This document shows positions 2,193 to 53,039 of a DNA stretch of 64,000 nucleotides, piece by piece. The DNA comes from Hericium rajendrae (Eukaryota > Basidiomycota > Agaricomycetes > Russulales > Hericiaceae), in NCBI GenBank assembly GCA_033439255.1, contig CM065882.1:496001-560000 (forward strand), given 5' to 3'. Both the position numbers and the translations under genes were made by a program. Every line of letters starts with the position of its first letter. The first letter of the stretch is position 1. The notes under the pieces are model-generated. The model was not told the DNA's origin and searched no databases. It saw only the letters and a program-made list of their open reading frames with translations.

Positions 2193-2277
2193 GGGCGCGT
2201 GGTGTAGTTGGTTATCACGCTCGCTTAGCATCTATCCTGATTGCGAGAGGTGTCCGGTTCAATTCCGGACGTGTCCA
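2193..2277 (+). tRNA. tRNA-Ala (anticodon AGC) with intron
   Basis: The acceptor stem is GGGCGCG with CGTGTCC, including a G3:U70 pair, the alanine identity element. The D arm, an anticodon stem CTCGC/GCGAG, a variable loop and a T arm TCCGG/CCGGA are all present. The loop reads T-T-AGC-A, so the anticodon AGC lies at 2227-2229. An 11-base intron (2231-2241) follows position 37. The discriminator base is A at 2277. Confidence 0.93.
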
Positions 2278-4637: not shown

Positions 4638-5842
4638 GGTGAGAGTGAAGAACGGCCGCTCTTTCGAGCATGCGAGGGATATAAGTACATACTGTGGAGA
4701 TCGCATGTCATAGCTTAAGTGACACAAGACGTTATCAGCGCGATACGATCCCGCGCGAGTCCAGCCCATGCTCGCCTCCTGGACGATCGTGGACAATGAA
4801 GTCTGAAAATGCTCTTCTTGTTGGACCATAGATGTGTTCCCGTAGACTAGAATGTGTTCCCGTAGACTAGAAAGGCATATTCGGTAAATGGATACCAATA
4901 TGCTAAGCTCCATCTCCGAAGAAGACCCAGATGAACGCGATGTCTGCGCCCCATCGAGCACCACTGGCATGCGCAAGCGAGCAGCGCGAGTTGGATGGGA
5001 CAGACGGCTACAGGCAGAACTCCCTTGCGCTATTGCTTCCGTGATGGGTGACGACTGACGCACGGCACTTGCACTTATCTCATCGCCCGTCCGTTCTTTC
5101 TTGAAGTCTTCGTGTGAAGGACAGAAAGGGCGAGACGCAGGCACGCTCATCAAATACCCTCGATGGCAGTCTTGCGACTCGTAGTCTTGTACTGTAGGCC
5201 CCAGCGCCGTCTAGTACAGCGAGCGGAGATCCGCCATATGTGCAACGTGCAAGCTGCGAGGAAACCTGACGCCATGTTTAGCGCCGTGAGCATCGTCACC
5301 AGAGCTGGAGACGGTGCGCTTACCTCGAGCATCTGCAGCAAGAAATCCAGTCGACACTGCAAGGGCCGACATCATACAGGCAAGGCATAACGAAGATGGG
5401 ACGTAGCAAGGCAATGTGTGCTTCGGTCGAGCTGAAGCTCGTCGTATATTGCCGCCTCTCTGCTGGCATCGTTACGGCTGAGAACATGGACTATGTATGC
5501 AAACCCGGGTGACATTCAAGTACTGAGCTATCTGCCATACAATCCCTGGAAACAAACCTATCAATATCAGCAGACAAGTGAATCACGCAGGATACAGACT
5601 GGCCTCCTCGAGTGGTCCCTTGAGAACGATACTTCTCATTAGTTCTCCGGAATGGTTTCGACCGACGAGTCCTTGATCGAAGAGATTCACTTATCGCCTC
5701 TCGCTCAAGGTCTGCCTAAGGGGGAGATTACACGAGTCTGGATGGAGGCGTACGAGTCTCAGTCTATCGCCCGACGTTGAAGAGGTCGAATAACAGGGAG
5801 TATTAACATGATATAATACTAAACAAATGGCATCCGCATATA
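4638..5842. other. Intergenic, no gene recognised
   Basis: This is the upstream side of the P450 gene, up to the second tRNA. I find only short overlapping open frames with no family features. It holds a 20-base tandem duplication at 4832-4871, noted separately. The P450 promoter should lie in the first few hundred bases. Confidence 0.5.
4832..4871. repeat. 20-base tandem duplication
   Basis: The unit ATGTGTTCCCGTAGACTAGA occurs twice in a row without change, upstream of the P450 gene. It looks like a recent slippage duplication. Confidence 0.9.
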
Positions 5843-12752: not shown

Positions 12753-13336
12753 ATGTCGAGGACCCTGTCAAACGTCTCGTACAATGTCACCCCATACGAC
12801 GTCATTGGCGTGGTAGCTAGCGTCGTCTCCATTTTGGCAATCTTCTGCAGTCTGATCCAGGCAAATCTACCTTGTGTCAAACTAAGGGAGCTTGACGAAA
12901 TGTTGAATGCCGTCGATGAACAGCTCAACGCTGCTGCTGAAGACGGTCTTTTGATGGAAGCCGATTTCATTCGTCAGACGAGTGAAGCTCTTACCATGTA
13001 GGAACCAGACCTTCGCTACTAGCTCTCTCTGTCACTGATCTCAACCCCTTCTCGCTACGCAGATTGCGGGACGATGCATACGAGTTGCGTTCATCGGTCC
13101 ACCTTGCAATAAGGCTGTTCCAGCAATTCATCGGCCTTTCGACGGGTTTGTCCTGGCAAATTTCAGCTCGTTGTACGAACGTTATGACTATTAGAGCTGA
13201 GCTTACGGTGTGTTCCGTCTTTAATCGTGTTGCGCTCATGAACACAGGTCTCGATCTAATACTGGTGCAGACGAAAATCACGGAGGCGCGGCAGAAGACG
13301 AAGCGCCTCCGTTGCCAGAGGGAGCCTCACGTCTAG
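12753..13336 (+). CDS. T-family membrane/coiled-coil protein, copy T1
   Basis: This is the first of three paralogues in the window (see 17837-18722 and 22572-23503). Exons are 12753-12997, 13063-13207 and 13271-13336, giving 151 residues. The N-terminal half has one hydrophobic segment (DVIGVVASVVSILAIFCSLI), then a helix ANLPCVKLRELDEMLNAVDE predicted as coiled coil. Exon 2 is 145 bases in all three copies and encodes the most conserved part, including FIGLSTGLSWQIS and MTIRAELT. Exon 3 starts TKITEAR, like the others, but stops early. Sequence resembling the tail of T2 (VALRDM) continues in another frame behind it, so the tail has suffered a frame change. Function is unknown. Confidence 0.6.
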
Positions 13337-14417: not shown

Positions 14418-16536
14418 ATGTCGCTGAAAGTCCCAAAATCCAACAACATCCAGCTTTTTAAAGAAGGATACAAGGTACATCTATTACAGTCGTTGTTTTT
14501 GGGATACATGCTAAGCAGATATGGTGATTTGTTCCACAGCATCTCTCCGGCCTCGAAGATGCAGTTCTCCGAAACATCCAGGCAGTCGCTGAACTCTCGG
14601 ACCTCGTGCGCACGAGTTTCGGGCCAAATGGTACGCGTATCACACTTCTAGCCATGTGGAATTCTTTCGGGCAGAATAATGTGTACTGAACGCGAGCTCG
14701 CACGGACAGGACGGAATAAGCTAGTGATCAACCATCTTGGCCGTCTTTTCGTGACCTCGGACGCAGCGACGATAATCCGCGAGATCGAGGTCGTACATCC
14801 TGCAGCAAAGCTGCTCGTGATGGCATCGCAGGCGCAGGAGGCCGAGGTGCGTCGTCTGCTCCTATCGCGTCCGCATTGCTGATTGTGGGATTACGCCGGT
14901 AGATGGGCGACGCGACGAACCTGGTGCTCATCCTTGCGGGTGAGATGCTGAAGAAGGCGGAGCATCTGCTCGTGATGGGTCTGCATCCGAGCGAGGCGAT
15001 CAAGGGTTACGAATCCGCGTCCGCAAAGGCGCTGGCCGAGCTCGAGAGTGTGTGTTCCCATCGTCTCATCTGAATTGTCGTCTTACTTTTTCTCAATCCG
15101 ATCTAAATCCAATCGTATGATTCCTACGACACAGCACTTTCATGTAGCTCGCTTCCGACGCCGCTCACGCACGAGGCCCTTACGCATGCCATCAAGCCCG
15201 CGATCGCGTCGAAACAGTATGGCTATGAAGACACGCTCGCCGAGCTCGTTGCGGAGGCCGCGCTCTCTGTCATGCCGCAAAACCCAAAACTATTCAACGT
15301 CGACAACGTGCGCGTCGTGAAGATCATGGGCGGCAGTCTCTCGGGGAGCAAAGTCGTGCAGGGTATGGTCTTGGGGCGCTCACCAGAGGGTATGTGAATT
15401 TATATGCTGACTTTTCCTGGTCTGCGATCGCTGATGGACGGATGGTATGACCTAGGTGACGTGAAGAATGTGACAAAAGCGAAGGTTGCGGTGTTCACCA
15501 ACCCAATCGATGTCGCACAAACCGAGACGAAAGGCACCGTCCTGATCAAAAACGCCGACGAGATGCTCAACTTCACGCGCGGCGAGGAGCAGCACATGGA
15601 AAAGGTAAGCACACACTCCCATCCATCCGTCTCTTGTGCGATCTCACAATCCGCGCCCTCCCCCACGCAGATCTTCTCCGAGCTCGCCGCCTCCGGCGTC
15701 AAAGTCGTCATCGGCGGCTCGTCCATCGGCGACCTCGCGCTGCACTACCTCAACCGGCACCACATCCTCGTGCTGAAGGTGCTCTCCAAGTTCGAGCTGC
15801 GCCGCCTGTGCCGCGTCGTCGGCGCGACGCCGCTCGCGCGCCTCGGCGCGCCGACGCCCGAGGAGGCGGGCTTCGTCGACGTGTGCGAGACGACGGAGGT
15901 CGGCGGCGACCGCGTGACGGTGCTGCGGCAGGACGCGCCGGGGCGCACGCGCACCGCGACGGTCGTGCTGCGCGGCGCGACGCAGAACCACCTCGACGAC
16001 CTCGAGCGCGCGGTCGACGACGGCGTCGGCGCGCTCAAGGCGCTCTTGCGCGACCCAAGGCTTGTGCCCGGCGCGGGCGCGACGGAGCTCGAGCTTGCGA
16101 AGCGGGTTGATAAGTATGGTGCGAGCCTGAGAGGGCTTGCGCAGCATGCGGTGCGGCGGTTTGCGAGTGCGCTGGAGGTCGTGCCGCGGACGATCGCGGA
16201 GAACGCGAAGGGTGGCGCGGCGGGCAATGAGACGGTCGCGAAACTGTATGCCAAGCATGAGAAGGAGGGCGGCGAGGTGTGGGGCGTTGATGTCGAGGTC
16301 AGTCTAGTTTGCTTCTACTTGTTTATCAGGGCTGACGAAGCATGCAGGAGCAGACTGACGGGACGCTGAACGCCGCTGAGAACGGCATCCTCGACTCGCT
16401 TGCGGCCAAGTCGTGGGCGATCAAGCTTGCGACTGAGGCGGCCGTATCGGTGCTCAGTGTTGACAGCATCATCATGAGTAGGCCGGCTGGTGGGCCCAAA
16501 ATCCCGCAGCAGGCGGGTAACTGGGATGAGGACTAG
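14418..16536 (+). CDS. CCT8: T-complex protein 1 subunit theta (CCT8)
   Basis: This is one of eight subunits of the cytosolic chaperonin TRiC/CCT, which folds actin and tubulin. It starts MSLKVPKSNNIQLFKEGYK and continues over about eight exons. Typical group II chaperonin features follow in order: VRTSFGPNGRNKLVINHLGR (nucleotide binding), DAATIIREIEVVHPAAKLLV, MGDATNLVLILAGEMLKKAE, the apical domain with VKIMGGSLSGSKVVQGMVLG and NPIDVAQTETKGTVL, then the intermediate domain with VLRGATQNHLDDLERAVDDG and VPGAGATELELA, ending AAKSWAIKLATEAAVSVLSV and GGPKIPQQAGNWDED. The length is normal for the family and the frame is open across exons, so it should be functional. Two decayed 3' fragments of this gene lie downstream at about 17.0-17.8 and 21.8-22.5 kb. 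Confidence 0.95.
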
Positions 16537-17019: not shown

Positions 17020-17760
17020 CGCGGGGTCACACAGACGGAAGTCAAATGCAAAGTCCTGTTCAACTCAAGCGCTGATGACAGGCTCAACCTCCCTGATGCC
17101 CCACAGCGAGCAGAAAGGCCCAGAACAACTTTCTTCTGTGAAAGATCAGAAACATAGGCCAATCAAAAAGTGAGTACATCCTCCCATTGTACCCGTCTAC
17201 GCAATCATCAGACAAACACCCTCGGCAGATCAGCTCGTCGCCTCTGGCGTCCAAGACATCATCGATGGCTACGCCTCCGCAGACCACGCGCTGCACTCGT
17301 TGTACTCTGTAGAAAGTGCTCAGTCTAAGCTGGACCAGCTCGTGAGGAAGCAGGCTACGTCGACATGTGCACCACGACGGTCGCATGGTATTGCGCGATG
17401 CAAAAACCGTCTAGATGACCTCGAGCACACGATTAATCTTGAAGCTGGCGTGTTCAAGGCATCTCTGCGCTTCGCTGTTGCTGATTAGATAAAGGAAGGT
17501 GTATAGCTGGTAACGTGGCATGACTGGTCTGAAACTAAAGTGTTGAAAGGTGGCGCAAGCGCGGATGGTATGGGTTATAGCAACACAGTGCAGGGGTATC
17601 GAGCGAGCTCTACAGCATTCAGAATGGGAGACGCCGAGGATACTGCAAGAATGGTATGAAGTGGGTTCCAGAAATTAAAGGTGCGCGCAGCACTATGAAA
17701 ACAAGGACCGTCCGATGTAGATGCTAATGAAGACGCATGTAGAGCATAATGGTTCCATAA
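17020..17760 (+). pseudogene. CCT8 3' fragment, unit 1
   Basis: This is a decayed DNA-level copy of the middle and 3' part of CCT8. TQTEVKCKVLFNSSADDRLN matches the CCT8 stretch from AQTETKGTVL onward. After a remnant of the same intron comes LVASGVQDIIDG..ALHSL, matching ELAASGVKVVIGGSSIGDLALHYL. NRLDDLEHTINLEAGVFKAS matches NHLDDLERAVDDGVGALKAL. A last block near 17600-17650 corresponds to the EVVPRTIAEN region. Because the intron is kept, it did not arise from an mRNA copy. Stops and length changes exclude a working chaperonin. Confidence 0.75.
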
Positions 17761-17836
17761 TTATCCGATGTCGGATGCTTAGAAGCGACAGCATATTTAT
17801 GCTGTTGCGTAATGAAAGTGCGACTGGCGTTACGCT

Positions 17837-18722
17837 TTAGGCTGCGCCTACAGCCATGATGGTGGGAAGTGCCGGCTTGTCGACGCTGTCCGACTCCAGC
17901 TCGACTTCGCCATGGATGGTATCTAGGTGCCATCAGTACGTACTACGCGAGGCGTTACTATTGTTCAGATACTTACCGCCATCATAGGAAGATGACGCAT
18001 CCATTTGATGCTCGCACTCATCCTTCTGCTGAACATCTTGAGTCATAGTATCATCTGACCGTCGATCATGATCAATGTCTCGCCGGGCTTCATCAAATAC
18101 GGTAAACGGACCTGATACTGCCAGACTGGCATCCGATGATTGGGAGTCGGAGCCTACGTCTCGCAAGGCAACCTCGGAACGCGAGGTATGCTCCTGCTCA
18201 CGCTGAAGGCGCTTCCTGGCCTCTGTGGTTGTGGTCTACACGACCATTGGTTTAGATTGACGGGAAGTGGGTAAGAAATAACTGTGGAACATACTACGAT
18301 TCTAGCTCTGACTGCCTTTACTTCCCCACACACGACGGATATCCTAAGGGACAAGCCCGTCAGAAGGCCGAAGCATTGCTGGGAGACTGTTGTTGCCATA
18401 TAGACGGGATCTCGGAACGAGTCGGCATTGTCCCGCAGGCTGTAACAACATGTAGGTAAGATATGCAACGCTCAGTGAGTAAGTGAATATCTCCGTCTCA
18501 CACAACGAGGGATTCCTCGGTTTGATGAATAAAATTGTTGTTCGTTAAAAGACCTTCCTCCTGCGCCGCCTTGAATTGCTCATCGGTCGAGTCCAGGATT
18601 TCGTCGAGCTCCTTCAGTTTCTTATGCGGCAGATTCATCCAAGCAAGCTGGCCGAATAGTGCCGCAATGGAGATGGCGCTGGCCACGGCACCCCAGACGT
18701 CGTATGGGGATCTCGTCGACAT
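17837..18722 (-). CDS. T-family membrane/coiled-coil protein, copy T2
   Basis: Exons are 18722-18502, 18439-18295 and 18235 to about 17975, plus a last exon ending at 17837. It starts MSTRSPYDVWGAVASAISIA, which includes a hydrophobic segment (about residues 8-28), then NLPHKKLKELDEILDSTDEQ, a likely coiled coil. Exon 2 encodes LRDNADSFRDPVYMATTVSQ and FGLLTGLSLRISVVCGEVKA, the core shared by T1-T3. Exon 3 starts TTTTEARKRLQREQEHT and runs into an acidic, serine-rich, probably disordered tail. The last exon begins DTIHGEVELESDS. There is no signal peptide or known domain. It lies between the CCT8 fragment (tail to tail, about 80 bases apart) and kinase K1 (head to head, 435 bases apart). The same order is repeated 5 kb downstream. 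Confidence 0.7.
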
Positions 18723-19157
18723 AATTATGCTGTATATGTAATTTACTAAATTGTTACATTTCGAGAACGTAACACCAGACATGACGTACTGTACGGGAGC
18801 TCGACTTGTCGAAAGGCCCGATCCGTCGCTGCAACCCCAAGGCGGCGAGGCGATTCAAGAATACAATGGTCTCGGCTGATATGAGAGGGGATAAGTCAAG
18901 TGGAATTCAGGACGAATGGTCTATACCATGCTCGTATTTCACGCATCCAAGCCGTGCAGTGGCCGTGCTTATCATGATCAGATCGCCAACATGCGTCTAC
19001 CTCGAGGCGGGTCTCGTGTTTCAACCTGTGATAGGCTGTGGGTCCTGGGTCTACGTAAACAAGGGATAGGCTTCGACATCGATCTCCCCCCACACCGTCT
19101 CCAACATCAACCGCCTCCCTACGCTCCGAAATCCTTACCCCTCCGTCGTTGGCATGA
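18723..19157. promoter_or_regulatory. Shared divergent promoter region T2/K1
   Basis: This 435-base spacer separates the start codons of T2 (-) and K1 (+). The matching spacer between T3 and K2 is 418 bases. The conserved head-to-head order and spacing suggest shared control, which is an inference. I saw no clear named motif. Confidence 0.4.
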
Positions 19158-20521
19158 ATGGTTGCGAGAACTGGGCTTCCGTCGCATGCTACTTTGCCCG
19201 AGGAGATCTGCAAAGTGTACCAGGCGGCCACGGAAAGAGGTGTCTATCGACTCACTACGGCAGAGCGAGCATGGAGAGATCGATACCAGGCCTTGCTGTC
19301 TAGAGGCTATCGACTTCGACCCCGGTATCATCCCGACTGGACTCCGTCATGGATAGGTACTCGTAGAGATCCGACATTCTGTGAAGATGCCATACTCCTT
19401 CGGGTGGGTGTAGTTACGCTTTCTTGCCTTGCTGCCATCTCTTAGTTGCATATGCAGGACTACCATGTCATCGACGCTGAGCGCATTCCGGACGGTGCGC
19501 GAGTGATGATCAAGCTTGTGCAAGGCAACCAACGCGAGCTCGAGATCGCGTCAGCTTTGACGACTGAAGAACTCCTTGACGACCCCATGAACCACTGTGT
19601 TCCCTTTCTCGAAGCTTTCCCAGATTCGCTCGAGGAAGACGGTATCCTAATGGTCATGCCATATCTAAATCCTTTCGACAACCCTCCGTTCGGTGCCGTC
19701 GGCGAAGTTATCGATTTCGTCAAGCAAACGCTTGAGGTATATCGTATCTACGCTCTTCACAGTTGTTCCTATTTCTTATACGACGTTAGGGCCTCTGTTT
19801 TCTTCACGACCATGGTGTGGCCCACAGGTAAGTCCCCGAGCATCTCATCACGCCCACTGGATACAGTCTAATATTGGCTTCATAGAGACTGCGCGGCGGC
19901 AAATATCATGATGGATGGTTCCGTCTTGTATCCGGATGGCCATCATCCTGTTCGAACGGACTTTTCCCCTGATGCCGTATGGCCATTAACGCCATTGGCT
20001 CGCATCGACAACCCGGTGAAATATTACTTTATTGATTTTGGAATATCCAGTCGCTTTCTCCCCGGAGAGGTGGCCCTCGTGACGGGTACCAAAGGGCGGG
20101 ACAAAGACCTTCCAGAGCTTTACGGGAAGGAACCGTACGACCCTTTCAAGGCAGACATATTCATTTTGGGAAATCTCTATAGGAAGGAATTCATCGAGGT
20201 TGGTTCGCCCCAGTTGTCTGTCTGTTTCACCTATTCACTTTTTTTCAGAAATATCATGGTCTCGATTTTCTCTCGCCGCTTGTAAACACCATGACGCAGG
20301 AAGATCCCAATATGAGGCCAAATCCCCAATGGGCTTTGGCCTTCTTCCACGTCACGCTGTTACACCACTCTGTCGGAAGTATGCGATGGCGCATCCGTCC
20401 AAGGGACGAGTCAGTCCCCGAACGCGTTGTTCATGATACCGTCGCCGTAGCCAGAGAAGCTTATCACCAAATCTGTCAAATCGTCGGTCTTATTTGTTCG
20501 AAGATTTGCGACTGGTTTTGA
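19158..20521 (+). CDS. Protein kinase-like protein, copy K1
   Basis: Five exons (19158-19403, 19458-19736, 19790-19827, 19886-20198, 20249-20521) give 382 residues. The N-terminal 80 residues are a family-specific region (VYRLTTAERAWRDRYQALLS, LRPRYHPDWTPSWIG). The kinase core follows: a possible ATP-site Lys in RVMIKLVQG (about residue 101), FLHDHGVAHRDCAAANIMMD with the HRDxxxxN catalytic loop (about 187-194), and YFIDFGISSRF with DFG (about 238-240). FKADIFILGNLYRKEF and MRWRIRPRDESVPERVVHDT are shared with K2. There is no clear glycine-rich loop. It belongs to a divergent kinase group common in mushroom genomes. Activity is plausible but unproven. Exons 2, 3 and 4 have exactly the same lengths as in K2. 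Confidence 0.85.
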
Positions 20522-21785
20522 TTTTGTTATGTTATAGCTGTTCCCCTGAACTCCGGGCCTTCATCATAAATGCTACGCATTGGACAACTGGATATGGCAT
20601 TACATCGCGCGGCTCTATCTTCTGGTCGCCTCGCAGCCGAGGCCGATCCCCAGTGGGGGGCGCGCTTCGAGGAGCAAGAACAACATGCATGCCTCCTACC
20701 TGAAGTTCGCCGAGTGGGTTCGGCGGGTCGCGGGGAGAGTGGGGTCAGTCGTCTTCAAGTACGTATTTCATCGATATACTGACTGCACGACAAGGTATTT
20801 TTCCAGAAAAGACCTTAATAAAGTTTGAGACCTATGAGAGTCCTTTAAGGCTGTTGGGAAAGAAACAAGTATTATCATGGTGAACAGCTTTTCGGAGCAG
20901 ATATCGTGATAATATCTCTTTCTTTCTCAGCATCTTTTTCAGAGAGGACTGTAACAAGTCTTACACTCATATTAAAGTCTTTCCTGGAGAAAAACTATCT
21001 CGTGCAGGCGGCGGATCGCTGTTTCTAGCCTTTCATTGAGCACATCGAGGAGAAGACATGCCTGGGCGTCGGCGATGCGGTCCTGTTACTGTGGTTCGAA
21101 TCAATTGTTTCGCTGTATTCTACGCGTGGATATCCTCTTTATCTGTGCTTCGGCATGGAACGGTCGTCCCGTATGGTCAAGCTGTTCGCCCACCCCTTGG
21201 ATCCTACCTGTCCTGTATCGCGGTGCGTTCACTATTCCGACTCTGACTTTTCTGAAATTGGCGCTCGCTGGCCTGACCCTGATAGGCCTGTGCTTTCCTT
21301 TAAATATTGGATGTCCGGTGTCGATCCTTACACCATCCTCACTGACCCATATCTCCCTCCGACTCTATCTCTCGTTCACCGATGACCCAAATCTGTTTGC
21401 TTTGAAGAGTGGCGGTGACAACGGGCTGATACCACGATACTTACGGTTCAGGAAGTGCTGTAGTTCATATTGAAATGCAATTAATGCAGACTGTTTTATA
21501 TCACACTCGATGGTACTGTAGTGTCTGCTCTGCCGATCCCATAGCAGACAGTGGTCAGAGGCGGCCGGCTCCAGTCTGCTCAGAGCCGCTGTGAGCAGAC
21601 TGGTGCTCCGTCAACCTTCGGCGTTTACCGAGATTTGGGCGCTAGTTGAGTCGGCGCAGCAGAGCAGCCCAGAGCAGCCCCCGACTCTTCCAGCTTGCTT
21701 CCTCCAACACATTGATCTCTTTTCCTCCTTACATATGCTTGTGAAAATCTTATCATGTGTCGATGTGTCCCGCTGCAATCCAAGC
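20522..21785. other. Spacer between the two T-K units
   Basis: No gene is recognised. A GC-rich piece at about 20560-20770 is open in more than one frame (for example DNWIWHYIARLYLLVASQPR) and looks like a transposed coding fragment. The rest is AT-richer and contains the hairpin cluster at 21522-21602. Confidence 0.4.
21522..21602. repeat. Hairpin cluster built on GTCTGCT/AGCAGAC
   Basis: One hairpin pairs TGTCTGCT (21522-21529) with AGCAGACA (21543-21550). A second pairs CAGTCTGCTCA (21572-21582) with TGAGCAGACTG (21592-21602) around a nine-base loop. The same core motif is reused in both. This could be the end of a small non-autonomous element or a cruciform-forming site. Confidence 0.6.
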
Positions 21786-21789
21786 CGAC

Positions 21790-22510
21790 GCCGCTGACCC
21801 ACAAGGCCACCTCTTGATCGAAAACGAGAGCGAGGTGCTCAACTTCAAGTACAGAATAACGACGGGCGAGGAGAATAGTTACTTTGTGAAAGGTAAGTGC
21901 ATAGTCCCATCCACTTCTTAGGCAGTCTATCTCAAGACGCTCTGTGCGCCTGCAATAGGTACTCGCCGAGCTCGCAGTCTCTGGCGTTTAGCCGTCATCG
22001 GCACATCCACCATGGGCAGTCTCATACTGCACCGATACCTCTACAACTATCTCAATCAGAATCATATAACCGTGTTGAAAATACTTTCAAGTACGGGCTG
22101 CGTTGTGTCGCATCGACGGCATGCCGGACCTGGAGGCGCACTCGCGCTGCGTGACGCGACCATGAACCAACTCAAGCCTCGAACATGTGGTCGGTCGCGG
22201 CGTCGGCGCGCTTGGGGCTTTCTGTGCCACCTGCGGATAGTTGAATAAAGCAAATTGTACAGCGCATTTATGTTAAAACGTAGAACGGTAAGAAGTAAGT
22301 AAGGCGCAAGCGCGTACGTGGATATTAATACACCGCAGGGTATCAAGCGAACTCTTTGCATCATGCAGATCTATACGAGGCGCTGAAGGTACTGCCAAGA
22401 ACGTTATAAGTGGGTTCTTTAAATAAAAGGTGCGCACGGCACTTATTGAAAAAGAAGGATCGTCCGGTGTGAATGCTTAACGAAGGGGCTGCAGAGCGTA
22501 ATTGTGCGTA
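21790..22510 (+). pseudogene. CCT8 3' fragment, unit 2
   Basis: This is a second decayed DNA-level copy of the CCT8 3' half. LLIENESEVLNFKYRITTGE matches CCT8 VLIKNADEMLNFTRGEE. The following intron keeps its donor and part of its sequence. Then VLAELAVSGV, LILHRYLYNYLNQNHITVLK and a short piece with MNQL match ELAASGV, LALHYLNRHHILVLKVLS and QNHLDDL. EALKVLPRTL near 22380 matches the SALEVVPRTI region. The frame is broken in several places. It ends about 60 bases from the T3 stop codon, the same arrangement as in unit 1. Confidence 0.75.
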
Positions 22511-22571
22511 ATGTCTCTGGTGAGGCGAAGTTGGTGCTGGTGCTGATGCGACTTGGTGGATAGGACCGATC

Positions 22572-23503
22572 TTAGGACGCTTCACAGGCGACTGTCGTGT
22601 CACAAGCTTCTTCCGTGAGCTCGATTGCCTTATGAGTAGTGTCTGCATGGATTAAAGTGAGTTTTCGCTTATACATCTGGACGTATATCCGTACTCACCT
22701 CCATTGTATGTCAGTGTCTTGTTCTCGGCTCCGCTCGGTATCTCATCCTCGGCCTCGTTCAGAGTCTTGTTCTCAGCCTCATCGCCTTGGCACCCAGACT
22801 CATTGAGGCTATTTGAGCTCTCTTCTCAGACATGAGCATACGAGGTGCCAAAAGATCTCAAAGGGCGCCACAGACCTGTGTCTTCAGGCAAAGACGTATG
22901 CTCATCAATTCTGGCGCCAGAGACCTGCCTGCCGCCGAGGTCGGAAGCGATCCTCTGTGCCTCTTGTTGATCTTGCACTAGGCCAAGTTGACGAAGGGTT
23001 TCCCTCGCTTTCTCACTCGTAGTCTGTGAATGATTCAGCGAATGCTAACCCATACGGGTAAGTTATAACGGACCGCGATCTCAGCTCTTACTTCTTTTAC
23101 TTCGGAGCACAGGAAGGAAATGCTGACTGATAACCCCGTTACTATAGCGAGGCATTGCTGAGGTATTGTCTTTGCGACATGGACTTGAGAACGCAGAGAA
23201 CGTGCGGTTCCTCGCAAACTAGTGGGTGTGGCCAAAGGACGGCTCAGCGCCGGATGTCCTTGATCTCGCAGCTAGTCGGGAAACTTACTTCTCTAGAGTC
23301 TCGTTCGTCTGATGCACAAAATCTCCTCCGTCCAGCAGACCTTCCTCATCCGCCTCGTGTAGCAACGCCTCGGTTTCTTGCAAGAGGTCTTCGAACTCCT
23401 TGAGCTTGGTCGAAGGCAGATTCATGCGAATAAGTTGAAAGATGACGGCCAGCACGGATAAGACACCGGTTATATAGCCCCAAACATCGGCACCCAAGGA
23501 CAT
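22572..23503 (-). CDS. T-family membrane/coiled-coil protein, copy T3
   Basis: Exon 1 is 23503-23289, exon 2 is 23218-23074, and two or more exons follow down to 22572. It starts MSLGADVWGYITGVLSVLAV, a hydrophobic segment, then NLPSTKLKEFEDLLQETEAL (coiled coil). The conserved core reads LRGTARSLRSQVHVAKTIPQ and IVTGLSVSISFLCSEVKEVR. The next exon starts TTSEKARETLRQLG. The tail is acidic (for example DEAENKTLNEAEDEIPSGAE), and the last exon starts DTTHKAIELTEE, the counterpart of DTIHGEVELE in T2. One tail junction is uncertain. The gene is head to head with kinase K2. Function is unknown. Confidence 0.65.
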
Positions 23504-23921
23504 CTGAAGCTACAAGTAAGGAGGCCACGTGGAAAATGGTGGAGTCGAAAAGCACATACCGTATGTGATGGTGTCCGTGATGTGGTGAACGAAATGGTTA
23601 TTCTGAGTACTTCAGAATGTTGAAAGGGAGGCTCAGCACGTAGAAATTAGTCGATAGCGCCCTCTGGCTGGACGAAGCGGCTGGAAGGGAAATAAGGACT
23701 TGCATCTTGTCTGGCTTTCTACTATCCTCGAGAAATTATTGAGTCCGATCGATGCACCTGGCGCGAGGCAGCCTCGTGGATGAGGGCTTGATGAGGGCGG
23801 CCAACGCCCATAACGGAATGCAAGGTAACACAACTCCGACATCGAGCGCTTTAGTTCAGCTTCAACATCTCTCCTTGTCTTCATCGCTTTCTGCTCTAAT
23901 CCTCCGCGATCTCTCGGATGA
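23504..23921. promoter_or_regulatory. Shared divergent promoter region T3/K2
   Basis: This 418-base spacer separates the T3 (-) and K2 (+) start codons. It parallels the T2/K1 spacer in position and length. A shared promoter is an inference from gene order. Confidence 0.4.
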
Positions 23922-25286
23922 ATGAAGCCCGTCGCTTTCGTGAAACCTCCCCCGTCTTACGTCTTCTTGGGCGAGGAGAGTTGCAAGATTTACCAAGAAG
24001 CCACGGAACAAGGCGTTTACAAGCTCACAACCGCCGAGCGGTCCTGGAGAGATCGCTATGAAGCCTTACTCGCGAAGGGATATCAACTCCGACCTCGATA
24101 TCATCCTGATTGGAGCCCATCGTGGATGGGTACAAATAGAGACCCCACATTCTGTGAAGACGCCATACTCCTGCGCGTATGTACGTTTCAAGCGCTACCT
24201 TAATCACTAATTTACTCGAATACGCAGCACTGGCATATCATCGATGCCATCCGCCTTGTCGACAAGCAACTTGTTACGATTAAATTTGTGCGAAACAACC
24301 TCCGAGAAATCGAGATCGCTCAGGCATTGACAACGCCCGCACTGCTTGACGATCCTACGAATCGCTGTGTCCGTATCTTGGATGTATTTCCCGATACACT
24401 TGAGGAAACCGGCTTCCTTATGGTCATGCCATATCTTCGTCCTTTCAATAGCCCTCCATTCGGTGCAGTAGGCGAAGTAGTCGATTTCGTCAAGCAAACG
24501 CTGGAGGTACACTGCAGTGTCTCCCATGTTGCGATCGAGCCCAGCTCACATGCCTTCCTAGGGTCTATCTTTTATTCATAGCCAACGCGTGGCACATAGG
24601 TACCCACCAATCTTTTTCTCGACGATTTTTACGACACTTCAACAATTTATGCTCTGCAGAGATTGTGCCGCCGGCAATATCATGATGGACGGCTCGGCGT
24701 TATACCCTGAAGGTCATCATCCAGTGCGGAGAGACTTTTCGGTTGATGCCGTCTGGCCTTTGAACCCTTTGCCTCGACTTGATAATCCCGTCAAATACTA
24801 TTTCATCGATTTTGGTATTTCCAGCCGATTTCGACAAGGCGAAACGACACTTGTCACGGGGTGGAAAGGACGTGATAAAGACCTCCCGGAACTGTCTACT
24901 GAAGTTCCCTATGATCCTTTTAAGGGAGACATTTTCATCCTAGGTAACCTTTATAAGAAGGACATCCTGGAAGTAAGCTCATGCATATTCTTGCTCTGGC
25001 CTACATATGTTGACTGAATACTGGATTGACTACTTAGAAATACCATGGTCTCGATTTTCTTTGGCCGCTCGTCAACGCAATGACGAAGAAGGACCCAAGC
25101 TCGCGCCCGGATGCGCGGTTCGCCTTGACGTTCTTCACGGTTCTGCTGGAAAATAACGTGGTCCGCAATATGCGATGGCGCATTCGTCCGAGAGACGAGT
25201 CCATACCCGAGCGCGTCGTCTACGATACTGTCGCCATGGCCCGTGAAACACTCTACCAGCTGAAACGCATCGTTGCTTCCGAATAG
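23922..25286 (+). CDS. Protein kinase-like protein, copy K2
   Basis: Five exons (23922-24176, 24228-24506, 24562-24599, 24660-24972, 25038-25286) give 377 residues. It starts MKPVAFVKPPPSYVFLGEES. The family N-terminal region includes VYKLTTAERSWRDRYEALLA and RPRYHPDWSPSWMG. The kinase core has LVTIKFVRNN (possible ATP-site Lys), HSQRVAHRDCAAGNIMMDGS (catalytic loop HRDxxxxN) and YYFIDFGISSRF (DFG). The C-lobe piece FKGDIFILGNLYKKDILEKY follows. All catalytic-type residues are kept, so both K genes seem to be under constraint. The strong likeness to K1, with identical lengths of exons 2-4, shows a local duplication. Confidence 0.85.
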
Positions 25287-26121
25287 ACCTGGATGAGCCA
25301 TGTCTATAGGTGTGTACTTTGGGTCATGAGTCGTGGACTTAAGTCTGACGTATCCCCCTTCTTGCCCAAGCTCCCTAAAAATGGCACGTCCATTGTACCA
25401 AGGTTACAATTACACCTCAGATCCCTTCGGCCAGTCTATTCTTCGTGCAGCTACGTTTTCGGTCGTGTTGACTAGACTTCGGTCTGATACGGCCTCATAG
25501 CCTCGACAAGTTCACCACCGCAAGTGACCGCGGCAGGCATCTCGAGAACATATGTTCCGCTCGTACCAGTCATGGTTCGTCGAGTTGATGCGAGGGTGGC
25601 GGCGACGGAGTATGAGTCGGTCGTCGTCAAACCTTTAATTTGGCGATTGTCTCAAGTCTTTAATTACGCAAGTTAAGGAGAAGACATGGCTACGCTCTAA
25701 TAATGTGGTCCTGTACCTCGGATTCAAATTAATCACCCTTCCTGTATTCTGCACTACCTTGCCAGTCATATCGACGAAGAGCGCGTCTTATGCGTCCCAT
25801 CAACTTTGCCGTTCAGCTTAAGACGTCTACTTCCCCTCAAACTATTCCGGACTCTTTTGCTATTTGGATCAGCTCCATCGAATATCTCATGATTAAAAAA
25901 ATCCGTAGATTTGCGCCACTCCTTTGGGTAACCACAAAGGGTCCTCTCCGATTTCCGATAGTATCGTCGGTACGTCTGTCCCAGTTTATCCCGTACAAAT
26001 GTGGCCTCTTTCACACATGTCCTAATACGGACTCCGATAGACGTGGCATTGCAGTAATAACTTCAGAATGCATCTAATCAACATTGGTTGATGTGCTCTA
26101 GTACATAGCTATGGCCTCTAC
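25287..26121. other. Intergenic, no gene recognised
   Basis: This stretch lies behind K2 and behind the 3' end of the reductase gene. I see only short frames and AT-rich sequence. Confidence 0.5.
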
Positions 26122-32059: not shown

Positions 32060-32599
32060 TGCAGTGTTTTTATTATCTTCAAAACCAGCAAATGGCGCAT
32101 CTGTTCATTTCCTTTTGTTCTCCGCGGCTATATGTGGCTCATTATATTTTATGTAGGGACTGCGCGACAACCGACGTTACAACGGACAGAGCACCGCTAT
32201 ATCCCGAAGGCCATCATGCCGCTCGGCGAGACTATTTAGTCGACGCCCTTTATTTATCCCGTGTCTTCTCTGCCTTGTGTAGACCATTCGGTCAAGTCTT
32301 CGGTCAAGTCTTCGTTCATCGACTTCGGCGTTCCTACTAGATCTAGCCCGCCAGTTCACGCTCGTAGCACTTCCTTTCGCCTTTGACCAACTCTTCGATA
32401 ACGAACGATGCGGAAGCGAGACCAGATGCGCCCCCTCCCCCCTCTTTCTTTAACACAAATTATGGACGGTCACCCGATACGCAACTTACAATGACACCTG
32501 CGCCCCGAAGACGAGTCTGTGCCCGCGCCGATCGTTTATGATACCGTCTCCATTGCTCGAGAAACTGTCCACCAGATCCAGCGTATGGCGAGGCCGTAG
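32060..32599 (+). pseudogene. Kinase remnant K3
   Basis: These are broken pieces of the K family. RDCATTDVTTDRAPLYPEGH matches the catalytic loop region RDCAAGNIMMDGSALYPEGH of K2, with the Asn and following residues changed. The short exon before it (VFIIFKTSKWRI) and the intron between them are still traceable. After a large loss, DESVPAPIVYDTVSIARETV matches DESIPERVVYDTVAMARETL. The DFG part is absent. The remnant lies about 7 kb from K2, beyond the A-T-R gene, and no T gene or CCT8 fragment is visible beside it. Confidence 0.75.
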
Positions 32600-47373: not shown

Positions 47374-48562
47374 ATGAACGCCGAGCTCCCAGTTGAACTC
47401 ACCACTAAGATCATAGAGCTTGTGTACCACCTTCCGGACGGTAGACCTGACGTGCAGATGCTGTCTGCATGTTCCATCGTCTGCAAGCGATGGTTCGGTC
47501 TCACGCGTCCACTGCTATATCGTTATCTTGCTGTAGGAGACTTAATGTCACCAGAACGCATACGCACCTCCCCTTCGATAAAGCGATCGAATTGCTACGC
47601 GGCCCAGGAAATCTAGGCACTTGCGTCCGATCCATTCGTATGCACATCGATGCATCTGGCACATCGTTCACAGAATTCATCACCATCCTCTCTCATTGTC
47701 CTCGTGTATACTGGCTCAATCTCGAGGTCACTCTGCACTGGTTCACCAGCCGTGAACTAGAACAGATTGATGCTCTCCCAGTGCGAATTCGGGCCCTGGA
47801 ATTGACGATGGGCAGCCCGGCCTCCCCGGTCCTATACCAGCTTCTGGAAGTCTGGTCTAGCATCCAATTCCTTCACATCAATTCCGAGATCATCGCCACT
47901 CCCCCTTTATATAGGCCCTCTTTCACCCTATATGAACTCAGTACACGGCGCTCTCTGCCCATACAAGTCTTCCGCTGGCTCCTTCCTCCCCTCCAGGACG
48001 GGAAGCGCACCCCCGATCTCCGCATCCTCGACTGCTGGGACCTGCCCTCCGACGAAATCTCCCATGTAATCGCCGAGTACGCCCTGCATGTGCGCTCGCT
48101 CCGGCTCGTGCATCCTCCGAAGCATGATTTCCTAGACGATTTCACTGTATTGGAGGAGTTCACCCTGCGGAGCGTTCCCGACCTCTTCCCGTTGCCGCCG
48201 TTGCCGCAGACGGTCCAGCACCTGCATGTCCACAGCTTTATCGTGCCCACCGGTACGATTCCGAAGTCCCTCCGCTACATGATTGACATGATTAAGGTGC
48301 TGCCGCATCTGCGGTTTGTCACTGTCAACCAGCCCATAGCTCAGAGGCGTGATTTCAGGGATTTGGTCAGGGCGTGCGAGGAGCAGGCGGTCGAGATGGT
48401 TGTCGATCCGGCGGTGATGTATCTTGTGGGTTCCTTTTATTTGCTTGTGAATGATGAGTGGCTTATTCTTTGCAGGCTGAATATCCCATTCACGTGAAGC
48501 ATTTTCCGTGGCTTTGCACGATGGAGAACCTATATCGTATGAATCCCATATCCGATGCCTAA
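47374..48562 (+). pseudogene. F-box/LRR paralogue 1, one frame break
   Basis: This is the first of four tandem paralogues. The F-box part starts MNAELPVELTTKIIELVYHL and runs through SACSIVCKRWFGLTRPLLYR. At about 47550-47565 the frame changes relative to the intact copy at 53843 (a one-base loss or two-base gain). The rest is then open over 300 codons: PGNLGTCVRSIRMHID, LPVRIRALELTMGSPASPVL, VFRWLLPPLQDG and so on. A last exon after an intron near 48428-48475 reads AEYPIHVKHFPWLCTMENLY and ends at 48562. With a single break and an otherwise open frame, it is a very young pseudogene or an assembly error. Confidence 0.7.
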
Positions 48563-48601
48563 TCTTAGCGAGATATAGACTTCAAGACAATAGCTGCCTG
48601 A

Positions 48602-49540
48602 TGTTCTGTCTGCAGGCAATGGTCCTCCTTCGCGTGCCGGCTACTATTGTTCCATGCCAACTCGCGCAGATGGATAGGTGGTCCCAAGTGCCTAGATGTC
48701 CTAGCCAGATTCGGAGGTCTCAGCAACTGCCTGACATCCCTCGTGCTGCCTCATTTCCCGTACCTGAGTTCCAGCAATATGGACGATTTCATCATGTCCC
48801 ATTTCCCCTCCCTATATCATCTCGACATCTCGTTTGAGATTGCGTCCTTCACCACAACTCAGCTTGATCGTTTAGCTGTTCTTCCCTATAAAATTTGCGC
48901 ACTCACCATTACGATTGGAGGATATGCCACGTCCACCGTATCATATCAGATTATGGCTCTGTGGCCGAGCATTCAATTTCTTCGACTTTTCGTGAAGGCG
49001 GACCTCACGGCTCCCACGCTAGCGGATCGTTCCCCCTTTCCCCTGTGCGAACTCAAACTATTGCGCCCATTACCGATAGATGTTGTTCGATGGCTGCTAC
49101 TTGCCCCAGATGACCAATCAAGTAGCCTCCATATCCTCGACCTGTCCTGCCACTTTCTCAGCGACAACGACCGCCACGCCTTTGGGCCCCTTGCCCCCCT
49201 TGCGCGCTCTCTGAGGATTCATTATTGGCTCCTTCCGCAGGACTTCATTGATCAATTCAGCGGCCTCGAGGAAATAGCTTTGATTGGCGTAAAGACCCTG
49301 AAAATTAACAGACATCCTCGATCCATCCAGCATCTGCGCTGGGAGATGGCCAGATGGCCAGCAAGCTTCTCGCATGACGTTATGTCGCTCATTAAGCCAT
49401 TGACCACCTTGCGACTGATGACGGTCCAGAAATGCATCCTGGACACATCTGATCTCGGTGAACTGATGCAGGCATGCCACGCAATATCCCAACCGGAGAG
49501 TAGTCGAGTGCTTTATCTTGCAGCGTGTAGTTCTGTCTGA
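48602..49540 (+). pseudogene. F-box/LRR paralogue 2, 5'-truncated
   Basis: About 300 codons stay open. They begin inside the F-box (CSVCRQWSSFACRLLLFHAN), with a stop codon directly upstream in the same frame. The first half of the F-box and a start codon are lacking. The repeat region is divergent but collinear with the other copies: LPYKICALTITIGGYATSTV, IMALWPSIQFLRLFV, PLPIDVVRWLLLAPDD, LEEIALIG. No last exon is seen. It is probably a truncated copy without an own promoter. Confidence 0.65.
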
Positions 49541-49789
49541 CAACCTCACAGCCCGAGTATCCTGTTCCTATAGACTGCTTCCCTCGTAATCGCACGATCA
49601 GAAATCTGTATCGCATGAATACGGTTGTTGACGCTTCACTCCGTGCAGAACACAGCTCCGACCGTGTACTCTGGATCTTAATATGAACGCTTCCTGCGTA
49701 TCTCGATCGGCCAAAATACGCACGTAATCTTCTGAACATGAGAACGTTTTCGAAGACCTGAACACGTCATTTCCATAAATCACGATAGT

Positions 49790-51345
49790 GTTTCCGCCGT
49801 GTTGTTTGGCGGATGGTTTGACCTTCCCGACGACAGGAACATCGAATGGCGTACCTCCTCGCCAAACGCGACCTATCCCAAAAACACCCGGTCCCCGTTC
49901 GATAGGATCTAACCTGCTGTATCTTATACTTCATATCCTTTTTTTTGGATTAGTCGCATCCTTTATCACACCGTGCTGCTCTGTGTTTTGACACTAAAAT
50001 ACCTCTCTTTCTTGCTCGTCGCATTTTCACTCGATCTCGCTTTCGCTATTGCTTATCACCACCCATATATTTATTCCAGTTCATTGTTGTACGGCTACAA
50101 ATAAAGAAGCGTCGTCCTTGCGACTAGTCCATGGCCCCCGCGTAAGCACTGCTAACTGACACTCACGCCCTCGCAGCAGCAGCCCCGACAAACTCCACGT
50201 CCTGCCACGACAACAACCCCTTCCACTCCCCCCGCACCCGCGGATCCGCATCCACGCGCGCCGAAACAGCATACGCGCTCCGCCGCTCCCACGCCGCTAG
50301 AAACCCCACCACGACGCCGACCGCGTCGACCGCGAGCCCCGCCGCGCAGCACACCACCACATTCCGCTCCCGCTCCCGCTCCTCCGAATCGTCGTCCGAA
50401 TCATCGAACGCGCTCCGCACCATCGCGCGCTCGACGAACTCGATCGCGGCGTCCAGCTGCGCCGCGTCGAGCCGCACCGCCCGGCCCTCGCCCTCCGCGT
50501 AGACGTCCCGCGCGCGCGGCACGACGAGCCGCAGCACCCGCGCGCCTCCCTCCGCCGCCTCGCGCGCGGCCCGTAGCCCACCGGCCGCGAGCGCGATGAT
50601 GTGCGTGACTTCACGCGCGCGCCAGGCGCCCCAGCGTGTGCGCGGGGACCAGAGGAGCGTGGCCGGGGGCGCGCCGGGGGGTGTGAGCGCGAGGTAGAGG
50701 TGCGGGGCGACTTGCGTCAGGTGCGCGGGGCATGCGGAAGGACGGGCGTTGATTGTGCGAGGGGGAGAGGGCGCGGGGCGGTGCGGGCGGAAGGCGCTGC
50801 TTCTGGTTTTCGGCGAAGGGGTGGTGGGGGAGGGCGAGTGGCTGAGCGCGAGGGCGGCGCGCGGGGAGGTGGGCGTCGTGGGGATCGAGGTCGCGATGCG
50901 CAGGGTGTTGTTGACGCGCACGCGTAGGGGGCGGCGCGGGGAGGAGCGCGTCGAGGCAAGGCAGGAGTCGCGTGAGGAGCGCGAGTCGGAGTCGGAGGAC
51001 TCGGGGGAGGGCGGGGGGAAGAGCGGGGAGGAGGCGCGGCTGGGCCAGGTGTCTGAACAGGAGGTGATGGGGGAGAAGGTGGGGAGGAAGGAGTAGAGCT
51101 CGTTGTTGGTGAGCGGGGATGCGTCGGTGAAGATCATCGTTCTTTGTTGGTGGTTGATCTACTTGGGGGGTGTCAAAGGGATGGGAGTAGGGCTGGAGGA
51201 TAGAGCTCGGTTCTTTGATGTCTGGGTGGGATGGCAAAGATCAAAGGGAGGGTGTTCTAGAGAGAGCTTCAAGACTGGAGGTGTGTACTGGATGAGCGTG
51301 GTGAGGGAGGGCAAGTCGCAGACGAGCCTTCAAGGGATATGTACG
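49790..51345. repeat. Inverted segmental duplication, copy B
   Basis: This is the reverse-complement counterpart of 1-1330. The left end (49790-49900) holds only the end of the last intron and the last exon of the unknown gene at 1174-2027. There the reading EHRMAYLLAKRDLS-QKHPVP lacks 33 bases. The rest carries the phosphatase-like gene in its better-kept form. It sits between F-box paralogues 2 and 3. Confidence 0.85.
50163..51137 (-). CDS. Dual-specificity-phosphatase-like protein lacking the catalytic Arg
   Basis: A single exon of 324 residues. The first 140 residues are Ser/Pro-rich and disordered. The C-terminal part follows the order of a dual-specificity phosphatase: HLTQVAPHLYLALTPPGAPP (as in ITxHLYLG), REVTHIIALAAGG, VLRLVVPRARDVYAE, then AAIEFVERAMVRSAFD and RNVVVCCAAGLAVDAVGVVV. 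The last piece is where HCxxGxxR is expected. The nucleophile Cys is present, but His is replaced by Cys and the Arg by Val, so catalysis is doubtful. It may be a pseudophosphatase or a gene starting to decay. The start MIFTDASPLTNNELYSFLPT is conserved as sequence, though not as an ATG, in the other copy. Confidence 0.6.
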   Translation of the reverse strand: MIFTDASPLTNNELYSFLPTFSPITSCSDTWPSRASSPLFPPPSPESSDSDSRSSRDSCLASTRSSPRRPLRVRVNNTLRIATSIPTTPTSPRAALALSHSPSPTTPSPKTRSSAFRPHRPAPSPPRTINARPSACPAHLTQVAPHLYLALTPPGAPPATLLWSPRTRWGAWRAREVTHIIALAAGGLRAAREAAEGGARVLRLVVPRARDVYAEGEGRAVRLDAAQLDAAIEFVERAMVRSAFDDSDDDSEERERERNVVVCCAAGLAVDAVGVVVGFLAAWERRSAYAVSARVDADPRVRGEWKGLLSWQDVEFVGAAAARA

Positions 51346-52110
51346 ACGAAGAGAGTTGGAACCCACTAATTGCGTCCCACCTGGGCGTTATAAACCATGA
51401 AAGACAATGCGCCGCATGTAGTGGCACAGTGCTGGAGGAGGCGAAATGGTCACCGCATGTGCCGCACCCACACGAGGCACTCTCAAAGAGCTGTTCATGC
51501 AGGGGCGCTAGTTTTAAAAGCAGCTGTAACGCTCCATGACAAGTCAGACCTCAATACTCACCGTTTCGTATCGCGTCGCGGTGCGCTGCTCTGCCAGACT
51601 CGACTTGATTCGAGTATACCAGGCGCGCGCCTTGCGAGACCTGTTCAAACGACGAAGGGTTAACACGTCGAACCAGTACTCACCATGTTCAACTTCATGA
51701 CAATATCTTACGTAGCGCCTTTCTGAATTTCAAACAGAGGATCTGGATAAAATTCGCGCAGGAACATGCCCACTGAGGTGGCAGGATGGCAAAAGAACAA
51801 AGGACGACAGCTGATGGCAAAGGCCAAATAACCTCAAAGCGCCCGACGGAGGGCGCTTATTTACGTGTTTGACCTGCGCGTCGCCGTGCCTTCAAGCTTC
51901 ATCGCTTTGCTCAACCGTATCCCAGAGCCCTCGCGGTGCAAGCGAGTTTCGAACATACCCTTTGTACCTGTTTTTCTGTGCGAACTATCTCTGTGAAGCT
52001 CAAGTTGCAATGGTTTTGCGCGGAGGTGGGTCGAATTTGGGATCCACGATGTATGGCATGCTTCTTGAACTTCACACCGACAGCTTTACTTCCAACCGGC
52101 AGACATCTCG
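51346..52110. other. Intergenic, no gene recognised
   Basis: This spacer lies between the inverted duplication and F-box paralogue 3. Only short frames are present. Confidence 0.45.
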
Positions 52111-52113
52111 CAC

Positions 52114-53039
52114 GTGGATAGCATATTGCCAGCTGAGCTTATAATCAAGATTATAGAGCTTGTCCACCACTTCCCAGATGGTATATCTGATGCAAAGACT
52201 TTATCTGCATGTTCGCTCGTTTGCAAGCAATGGTCCGGCTTCGCACGTCCGCTGCTTTTCCGACGCCTGGTCGTAGGCTTCGTTGTCGCTCCAAGGCACG
52301 TGTGGAACCATCCTTTTGATAGAGTGATTGCGAAGTTACGTGCCCCAGCCGGTTTGGGCGCCAATGTGCGATCACTGTTTCTCCATATGGAAGAATACTC
52401 GCCCCTCGTACAACTCTCCGTCATCCTCTCGCATTGTCCCTACGTTTATCACTTGTATCTTGAAGTCGCAAGCACATTTCCATCGGAACAACTCCAACAG
52501 CTCTCTGCGCTGCCAGTGCAGATCAGCGCGCTCGAACTGAAAAGCAGTCACCCGACATGCCGGGCACTGTTCCAGCTTCTGGGTGAATTAATGGTTCATT
52601 TCACTGCGCTCGAGGAATCTATCGTGCGGGTTACTCCCGATTTCTTTCCAATGAGACCTCTGCCGCAGATACCTTTGCCGCAGACGACCCAGCACCTACA
52701 TCTTCACCATTTCAACACGTTCACCACCACGGTTTGCCAGGCCGTGCGCCATACGGTCAATACAATCAAGTTGCTGCCGCATCCGCGGCTTGTTACTGCC
52801 AACCACGTCGATGGCGACGGGCAATGATTTCGGAGATTTTGGTCCGTTCGTGTGAGGAAATGTTTGTTGACTTGGTTGTCGATCCGGATGTCTTGCTCTT
52901 TGTGAGTCTATTCTCTGCCTCTCACCGACGAACGAGGCTCAGTGATCCGTAGTTCGAATATGGCGTTCGCGCTGAACGGTTTCTCCATCTTTCCACGATA
53001 GAGAACCTTTACCGAATGAATCCGACATTCCATATTTGA
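52114..53039 (+). pseudogene. F-box/LRR paralogue 3, internally deleted
   Basis: The F-box is well kept (DSILPAELIIKIIELVHHFP, SACSLVCKQWSGFARPLLFR), but the start codon found in paralogue 4 is GTG here. The repeat region lacks about 100 codons between FQLLG and VHFTALEESIVRVTPDFFPM. The frame is lost near 52825. The conserved last exon is still visible as FEYGVRAERFLHLSTIENLY, ending near 53039. It is a decayed copy of the same gene family. Confidence 0.75.

Follow-up and report, generated by a model that had tools for sequence, protein, structure and literature searches.

In animals, the kinase RIPK3 controls MLKL, a helical membrane executioner. Mushroom-forming fungi carry large kinase expansions whose functions are unknown, and the accessible parts of two papers describe FunK1 and AgaK1 (PMC4215621) as well as FslK (PMC3937382) as divergent kinases expanded in these fungi. 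A third paper ranks the Goodbye/HeLo/MLKL-like superfamily first in frequency among the effector domains of basidiomycete NLRs (PMC9815663). Here we analyzed a window of 64,000 nucleotides from Hericium rajendrae (C5:496001-560000 of a genome that spans 46.8 Mb in 19 contigs; the genes are intron-rich and of fungal type), in which a kinase gene, K, and a small gene, T, are transcribed away from each other and occur together twice in tandem. The analysis reveals a duplication, selection on K and on the core of T, and a divergent arrangement that recurs with the same predicted intron phases. The T-K pair is probably a real recurrent unit, and on balance we favor a reading in which T and K form an old pair of divergently transcribed genes, spread as a unit by tandem duplication, with equivalent P-K pairs on contigs C8 and C13.

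A tandem duplication of the T-K unit

The window contains two tandem copies of a unit of about 4.77 kb, each made of a decayed piece of CCT8, a T gene in reverse, and a K gene running forward. The features of the two units and the adjoining CCT8 gene are as follows.

17837..18722, minus strand: T1 gene, exons 18722-18502, 18439-18295, 18235-17977 and 17922-17837
19158..20521, plus strand: K1 kinase gene, from the gene model and a PF00069 match of 30.2 bits (E 3.8e-7); exons 19158 to 19403, 19409 or 19412; 19446 or 19458 to 19736; 19790-19827; 19886-20198; 20249-20521
22572..23503, minus strand: T2 gene, exons 23503-23289, 23218-23074, 23023-22699 and 22642-22572
23922..25286, plus strand: K2 kinase gene, from the gene model and a PF00069 match of 31.2 bits (E 1.9e-7); exons 23922-24176, 24228-24506, 24562-24599, 24660-24972 and 25038-25286
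14418..16536, plus strand: CCT8 gene adjoining the units, start and stop set by eye
17026..17470, plus strand: decayed CCT8 piece a, from blastn against CCT8 (best 77% over 66 nt) and a three-way alignment
21785..22231, plus strand: decayed CCT8 piece b, from blastn against CCT8 (61% over 327 nt, 71% over 93 nt)
17552..17753, no strand: noncoding block of unit 1, 73% identical over 212 nt with 22303-22505
22303..22505, no strand: noncoding block of unit 2, counterpart of 17552-17753
21020..21121, no strand: block after K1, 67% identical over 104 nt with 25648-25750
25648..25750, no strand: block after K2, counterpart of 21020-21121

When the two units were compared by blastn, the matches were colinear, with K at 67% over 1291 nt, T at 58% over 433 nt, and the two noncoding matches in the same order. 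In the repeat list (D1-D4), K is found at 71-75% DNA identity with a start-to-start spacing of 4770-4789. Because the block after K is common to both units, the duplicated unit extends beyond K. The start codons are separated by 435 bases between T1 (ATG at 18722, minus strand) and K1 (ATG at 19158, plus strand), and by 418 bases between T2 (ATG at 23503) and K2 (ATG at 23922). The stretch between the start codons of T and K gave no blastn match between the units.

The frame at 15398-16369 of the CCT8 gene matches PF00118 (E 1.4e-64). As judged by blastn and the three-way alignment, the CCT8 pieces are truncated, many-gapped copies of the 3' part of this neighboring gene. An earlier note, made from the letters of the window, had described a three-part unit present twice in a row, start codons 435 and 418 bases apart, and decayed CCT8 pieces. 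The colinear matches and the spacing of about 4.77 kb bear out the first of these, the gene models reproduce the second, and the gaps and truncation in pieces that still resemble the adjacent CCT8 agree with the third.

A CCT8 origin was also considered for the blocks at 17552-17753 and 22303-22505, and was rejected since the two copies are closer to each other than to CCT8. Both pairs of noncoding blocks are 67-73% identical between the units despite saturated synonymous sites in K, and this similarity could possibly reflect constraint, gene conversion, or the choice of the best-aligned piece. Between the units, at 20769-21021, some 250 bases form an imperfect inverted repeat (blastn self-match of 68% over 260), which is possibly a fold-back element; a repeat search reported no inverted pair of at least 40 bases at this position.

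Gene models and selection on K and T

In the model that fits the protein alignment, exons 2-4 of K measure 279, 38 and 313 nt in both K1 and K2. For exon 1 the length in K1 is uncertain, at 246, 252 or 255 nt compared with 255 nt in K2, and exon 5 including the stop codon is 273 nt in K1 versus 249 nt in K2. The catalytic lysine (in VAIK), the HRD motif, the asparagine, and DFG are all present in the alignment of K1 and K2, whereas no clear glycine-rich loop could be made out by eye. The PF00069 scores of both proteins lie just below the 31.7-bit cut-off. On the strength of this domain and the catalytic residues, K is assigned by sequence to the protein kinase superfamily. PF17667, which we take to be the Pfam family FunK1, was not among the Pfam matches of K2 (E up to 1) or K1 (E up to 10).

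Exon 2 of T measures 145 nt in both T1 and T2, in a model derived from an alignment of the T copies. The third exon of T2 (22699-23023, minus strand) contains an in-frame TGA, and the next exon looks alignable with exon 4 of T1; a small extra intron or a shortened tail is possible. Used alone, the home-made gene predictor was weak: the second exons of T2 and of a third T gene, T0, escaped it, as did parts of K1. T0 is absent from the earlier note and lies on the far side of CCT8 in the opposite orientation.

12753..13207, plus strand: third T gene, T0; exon 1 12753-12997, exon 2 13063-13207, exon 3 possibly from 13286; 43-48% core identity to T1 and T2; hand-read exon models

To measure selection, the proportions of nonsynonymous (pN) and synonymous (pS) differences were compared between copies; the resulting ratios come from paralogue comparisons and are not orthologue tests. 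For K1 and K2, over 374 codons with 70% amino acid identity, pN was 0.184 and pS 0.749 (saturated), giving a pN/pS of 0.25 (bootstrap 0.20-0.30). The T1-T2 core, over 120 codons, gave a pN of 0.329, a pS of 0.682, and a pN/pS of 0.48 (bootstrap 0.36-0.62), and the core comparisons with T0 gave bootstrap ranges of 0.43-0.70 and 0.41-0.66. In the identity list of pairs, T1-T2 stands at 47% versus 69% for K1-K2. The pN/pS values therefore indicate that K is strongly kept and the T core moderately; the T tail, judged by the low identity of exon 3, is hardly kept.

The earlier note had claimed that the T-K pair is kept by selection, with K exons of identical length, catalytic-type residues retained, and a T exon 2 of 145 bases. 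The catalytic residues were recovered in both K copies, as was the length of T exon 2 on the aligned model. Identical length applies to the internal K exons, because exon 1 is uncertain and exon 5 is unequal. Selection on the pair is seen strongly for K and more weakly for the T core, and it hardly extends to the T tail.

The N-terminal stretch of the T proteins is strongly hydrophobic, with a best 19-residue Kyte-Doolittle mean of 1.7-2.8. In the candidate partner proteins described below (P and PC), the corresponding stretch is weaker (0.6-1.3), so the term membrane protein suits T better than P. An AlphaFold model of T1 exon 1 alone shows three helices with a mean pLDDT of 58, which is too uncertain for a fold search. 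Against Pfam, neither T nor P gave anything above a family cut-off, and the sub-threshold matches were mixed (RHD3_GTPase 0.004, Fez1 0.004, Nucleoside_tran 0.006), and RPW8 reached only E 0.13, in one of six P proteins, ranking below unrelated families. The best matches in a PDB search (E 0.046 for P and 0.3 for T) were unrelated or designed proteins, several of them designed helical bundles, and the MLKL, HeLo and RPW8 four-helix effector profiles gave no significant match to T or P in Pfam or PDB. In IMG/VR viral contigs, the K2 query and the T alignment returned 13 and 115 pattern-matched stretches, respectively, with no relatives by tblastn in either case.

Partner genes beside other K genes

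A genome search with K2 revealed K-like exons beyond the window, which were grouped into 22 loci: seven each on C13 and C8, four on C9, two on C2, and one each on C6 and C3. There is one further K fragment at C9:407069, and the window itself contains a third copy in pieces.

32134..32587, plus strand: K3 kinase pseudogene, pieces of exon 4 and exon 5, from the genome search

Among 26 K rows, RD is present in 21, exact DFG in 17, and DYG or DLG in 3 more. A kinase tree was built from the 23 of these rows with more than 150 aligned columns. The K genes of C8 (7 genes), of C13 at 0.95-1.05 Mb (6), and of C5 (2) form separate groups with a support of 100 each, and those of C9, C6 and C2 and the gene at C13:342264 fall outside these three groups.

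The genome search with T matched only T0, T1 and T2 (E up to 0.1), all inside the window, and at E up to 10 the only further match beyond it was on C4 (E 4.1). When a profile of the three T sequences was applied to the window and twelve loci, the matches outside were weak; the best (E 0.47) lies in reverse about 0.6 kb upstream of a K gene on C8. The gene predictor found small helical genes in reverse upstream of K at C8:2706349, 2715900 and 2723434, and on C13 at C13:987072 (PC) and C13:1049518 (PD). The C8 partner genes, here named P, are mutually related. A whole-genome search with four P queries found eight P places, all at C8:2.690-2.723 Mb inside the K cluster, and outside this interval gave only matches of E 0.14 or worse. 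For P2693 and P2698 one exon piece was seen each, and PC and PD are single-copy in the genome search. For 8 of 12 T/P genes (T0-T2, the eight P genes and PC), the nearest family gene on the head side is a K, and K is within about 1.1 kb of T1, T2, P2705, P2715, P2722 and PC.

Gene architecture, predicted throughout, provides the main evidence that the pairing recurs. T0, T1, T2, P2689, P2705, P2715, P2722 and PC all have intron 1 in phase 2, intron 2 in phase 0, and a predicted exon 2 of 139 or 145 nt; P2711 and P2718 are also predicted with phases 2 and 0, with an exon 2 of 130 nt. An unconstrained ranking of models placed the 139-nt model first for all five P/PC genes. Intron positions and phases, compared as a test of whether T and P are one family, are thus shared on the predicted models. 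By sequence, the homology of T and P is no more than suggestive: for five of seven P proteins the T profile outscores 291 or more of 300 block shuffles, and the P profile outscores all 300 for T0 and T2.

A strict scan for this architecture required an exon 1 of 191-299 nt in phase 2 and an exon 2 of 133-151 nt, with a splice score of at least -3 and a mean helix propensity of at least 1.0. On the divergent side it found a match at 6 of 24 K genes, or at 4 of 22 when the window pairs are set aside, compared with none of 24 within 2.6 kb and one of 24 within 3.2 kb on the co-directional side. No match occurred in the control of 128,000 stranded nt, 96,000 of them from the window, and shuffles gave 0.067 regions of 22 per round (60 rounds). 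The other two phase classes that the scan can test gave none in 22 regions. A relaxed scan raised the divergent count to 7 of 24 by adding P2689. Some of the upstream stretches scanned overlap or enter a preceding K, the stretch at C9:407069 covers only 931 nt, and the scan left out the K gene on C3 and the K3 pseudogene. Two further candidates are uncounted because the architecture scan misses them: PD, a single-frame helical open reading frame of 117 amino acids (C13:1048410-1048760, minus strand, 757 bp upstream of the K match at C13:1049518), and a frame upstream of C6:707334.

By tree and scan together, the partner-bearing K genes fall in the three kinase groups of C5, C8 and C13, and the scanned K genes outside these groups gave no architecture match. 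Since partners occur in three kinase groups, the pairing looks old. An old pairing with many losses fits this distribution; repeated gain of T/P beside K is a possible alternative.

Elsewhere in the window, at 2193-2277 (plus strand), ARAGORN calls a tRNA-like gene whose anticodon has four bases, perhaps falsely, and several long frames at 47451-55150 resemble, by eye, tandem F-box-like genes.

Readings of the pair and known systems

In the reading that we favor, K is a divergent protein kinase that retains its catalytic residues and belongs to a family expanded in this genome. T is a small protein, predicted to be all-helical, that changes much faster than K; its N-terminal helix is hydrophobic or amphipathic, exons 1 and 2 encode a helical core of about 120 residues, and the tail is variable. 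The unit would spread and die through tandem duplication, one such event here having carried the CCT8 piece as a passenger, and it has its equivalents in the P-K pairs of kinase groups C8 and C13. The head-to-head placement and the tandem duplication suggest that the T and K proteins may have a joint function of an undescribed kind, and they could form a signaling or recognition pair. A more tentative proposal is that T might serve as a helical, membrane-associated effector or adaptor; phosphorylation by the neighboring K would set its activity or its choice of partner, and joint expression from the region between the genes would keep both in balance.

Several observations weigh against the favored reading or limit it. 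The test of head-to-head pairing covers one genome and three loci: the two window pairs arose by one duplication and are counted once, the C8 pairs are mutually related and leave only C5, C8 and C13 as separate loci, and the recurrence on C13 consists of one pair. No K was found beside T0 (tblastn at E up to 1). Four of the 12 T/P genes (T0, P2693, P2711 and P2718) have no K as their nearest family gene on the head side, P2689 is 2.2 kb from its K, and the seen piece of P2698 is 3.9 kb away. The scan settings were taken from T once some P genes were known, and the relaxed scan also returned two control and two co-directional matches. In the unconstrained ranking, the 145-nt model came third for T1 and outside the first four for T2 and T0, the T models being drawn from an alignment of the three copies. 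Profile-profile comparison of T and P with hhalign gave E 0.06-0.08, which is not significant; the P profile is ordinary for T1 (31 of 300 shuffles as good) and PC (37 of 300), and the T profile is ordinary for P2689 (120 of 300) and P2711 (163 of 300). Exon 3 of the T copies shows 25% amino acid identity, and the tail is barely conserved. Lastly, 17 of the 24 tested K genes have no recognizable partner even by the relaxed scan. The idea of the earlier note, that T and K are kept as a head-to-head pair, is partly supported by the strict scan, with 6 of 24 on the divergent side and none in the control; this is better support than the T sequence by itself would give, and it does not reach these 17 genes.

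The single event behind both window pairs, the 17 unpaired K genes, and the presence of T0 without K would also be expected if T came to lie beside K by chance, was copied with it by unequal crossing-over, and had an unrelated function, the other P-K pairs being cluster-local duplications. We consider this unlikely, though the strongest of the alternatives, because divergent partners of the same predicted architecture occur in three kinase groups and nowhere in the control of the strict scan. Slightly less likely still is that one short bidirectional promoter keeps the pair, so that the two proteins act in the same condition and not on each other. The short distance between the start codons in the window fits such a promoter, whereas the inter-start stretch is not alignable by blastn between the units and four C8/C13 pairs are wider, at 0.58-1.03 kb to the K match.

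The rapid change of T invites an explanation by conflict, in which T/P would be a poison-like membrane protein with K as its antidote, or the pair would be an allorecognition determinant, and birth and death would likewise reflect the conflict. In four C8 pairs, the P proteins are 20-31% identical where the K proteins are 56-63% identical, and the family shows local expansion and a K pseudogene, all of which this account would accommodate. The T core is still under purifying selection, however, and we regard the account as improbable. By analogy, K could instead gate a fast-evolving, separately encoded helical membrane executioner in a two-gene module for regulated death or recognition, a split and non-homologous counterpart of RIPK-MLKL. 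Several kinase groups would then keep such divergent pairs, with birth and death as the source of their diversity. Our estimate for this was lowered a little, because RPW8 is not the best Pfam match, and it now stands as a shade more improbable than the conflict account. That T/P are neutral, decaying open reading frames is highly improbable: the stop in T2 exon 3 and the barely conserved tails would fit, but each of the three T comparisons gives a core pN/pS below 1, with upper bootstrap bounds of 0.62-0.70, and the predicted intron phases are shared.

If the preferred reading of an old T-K pair is correct and K has a dedicated, linked and fast-evolving partner, this partner would show where the kinase acts and would predict a testable complex. 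The gene-architecture criterion also offers a route to partners that sequence search misses. Among the matches listed in a search of open PMC titles and the starts of abstracts, no paper describes such a kinase/helical-gene pair, which is weak evidence of novelty.

Compared with known systems, T-K resembles RIPK3-MLKL in idea only, as an analogy. K resembles FunK1, AgaK1 and FslK in being a divergent protein kinase of a kind expanded in mushroom-forming fungi; unlike for K, the accessible parts of the papers on these kinases mention no paired helical gene (PMC4215621 for FunK1/AgaK1 and PMC3937382 for FslK). The T/P proteins resemble the MLKL-like, HeLo and Goodbye domains, which are common in Agaricomycetes, in being helical with an N-terminal helix. 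In the accessible part of PMC9815663, those domains are treated as parts of NLRs and not as partners of kinase genes, in contrast to T/P. By analogy, a role for T/P like that of the basidiomycete NLR effector domains is thinkable.

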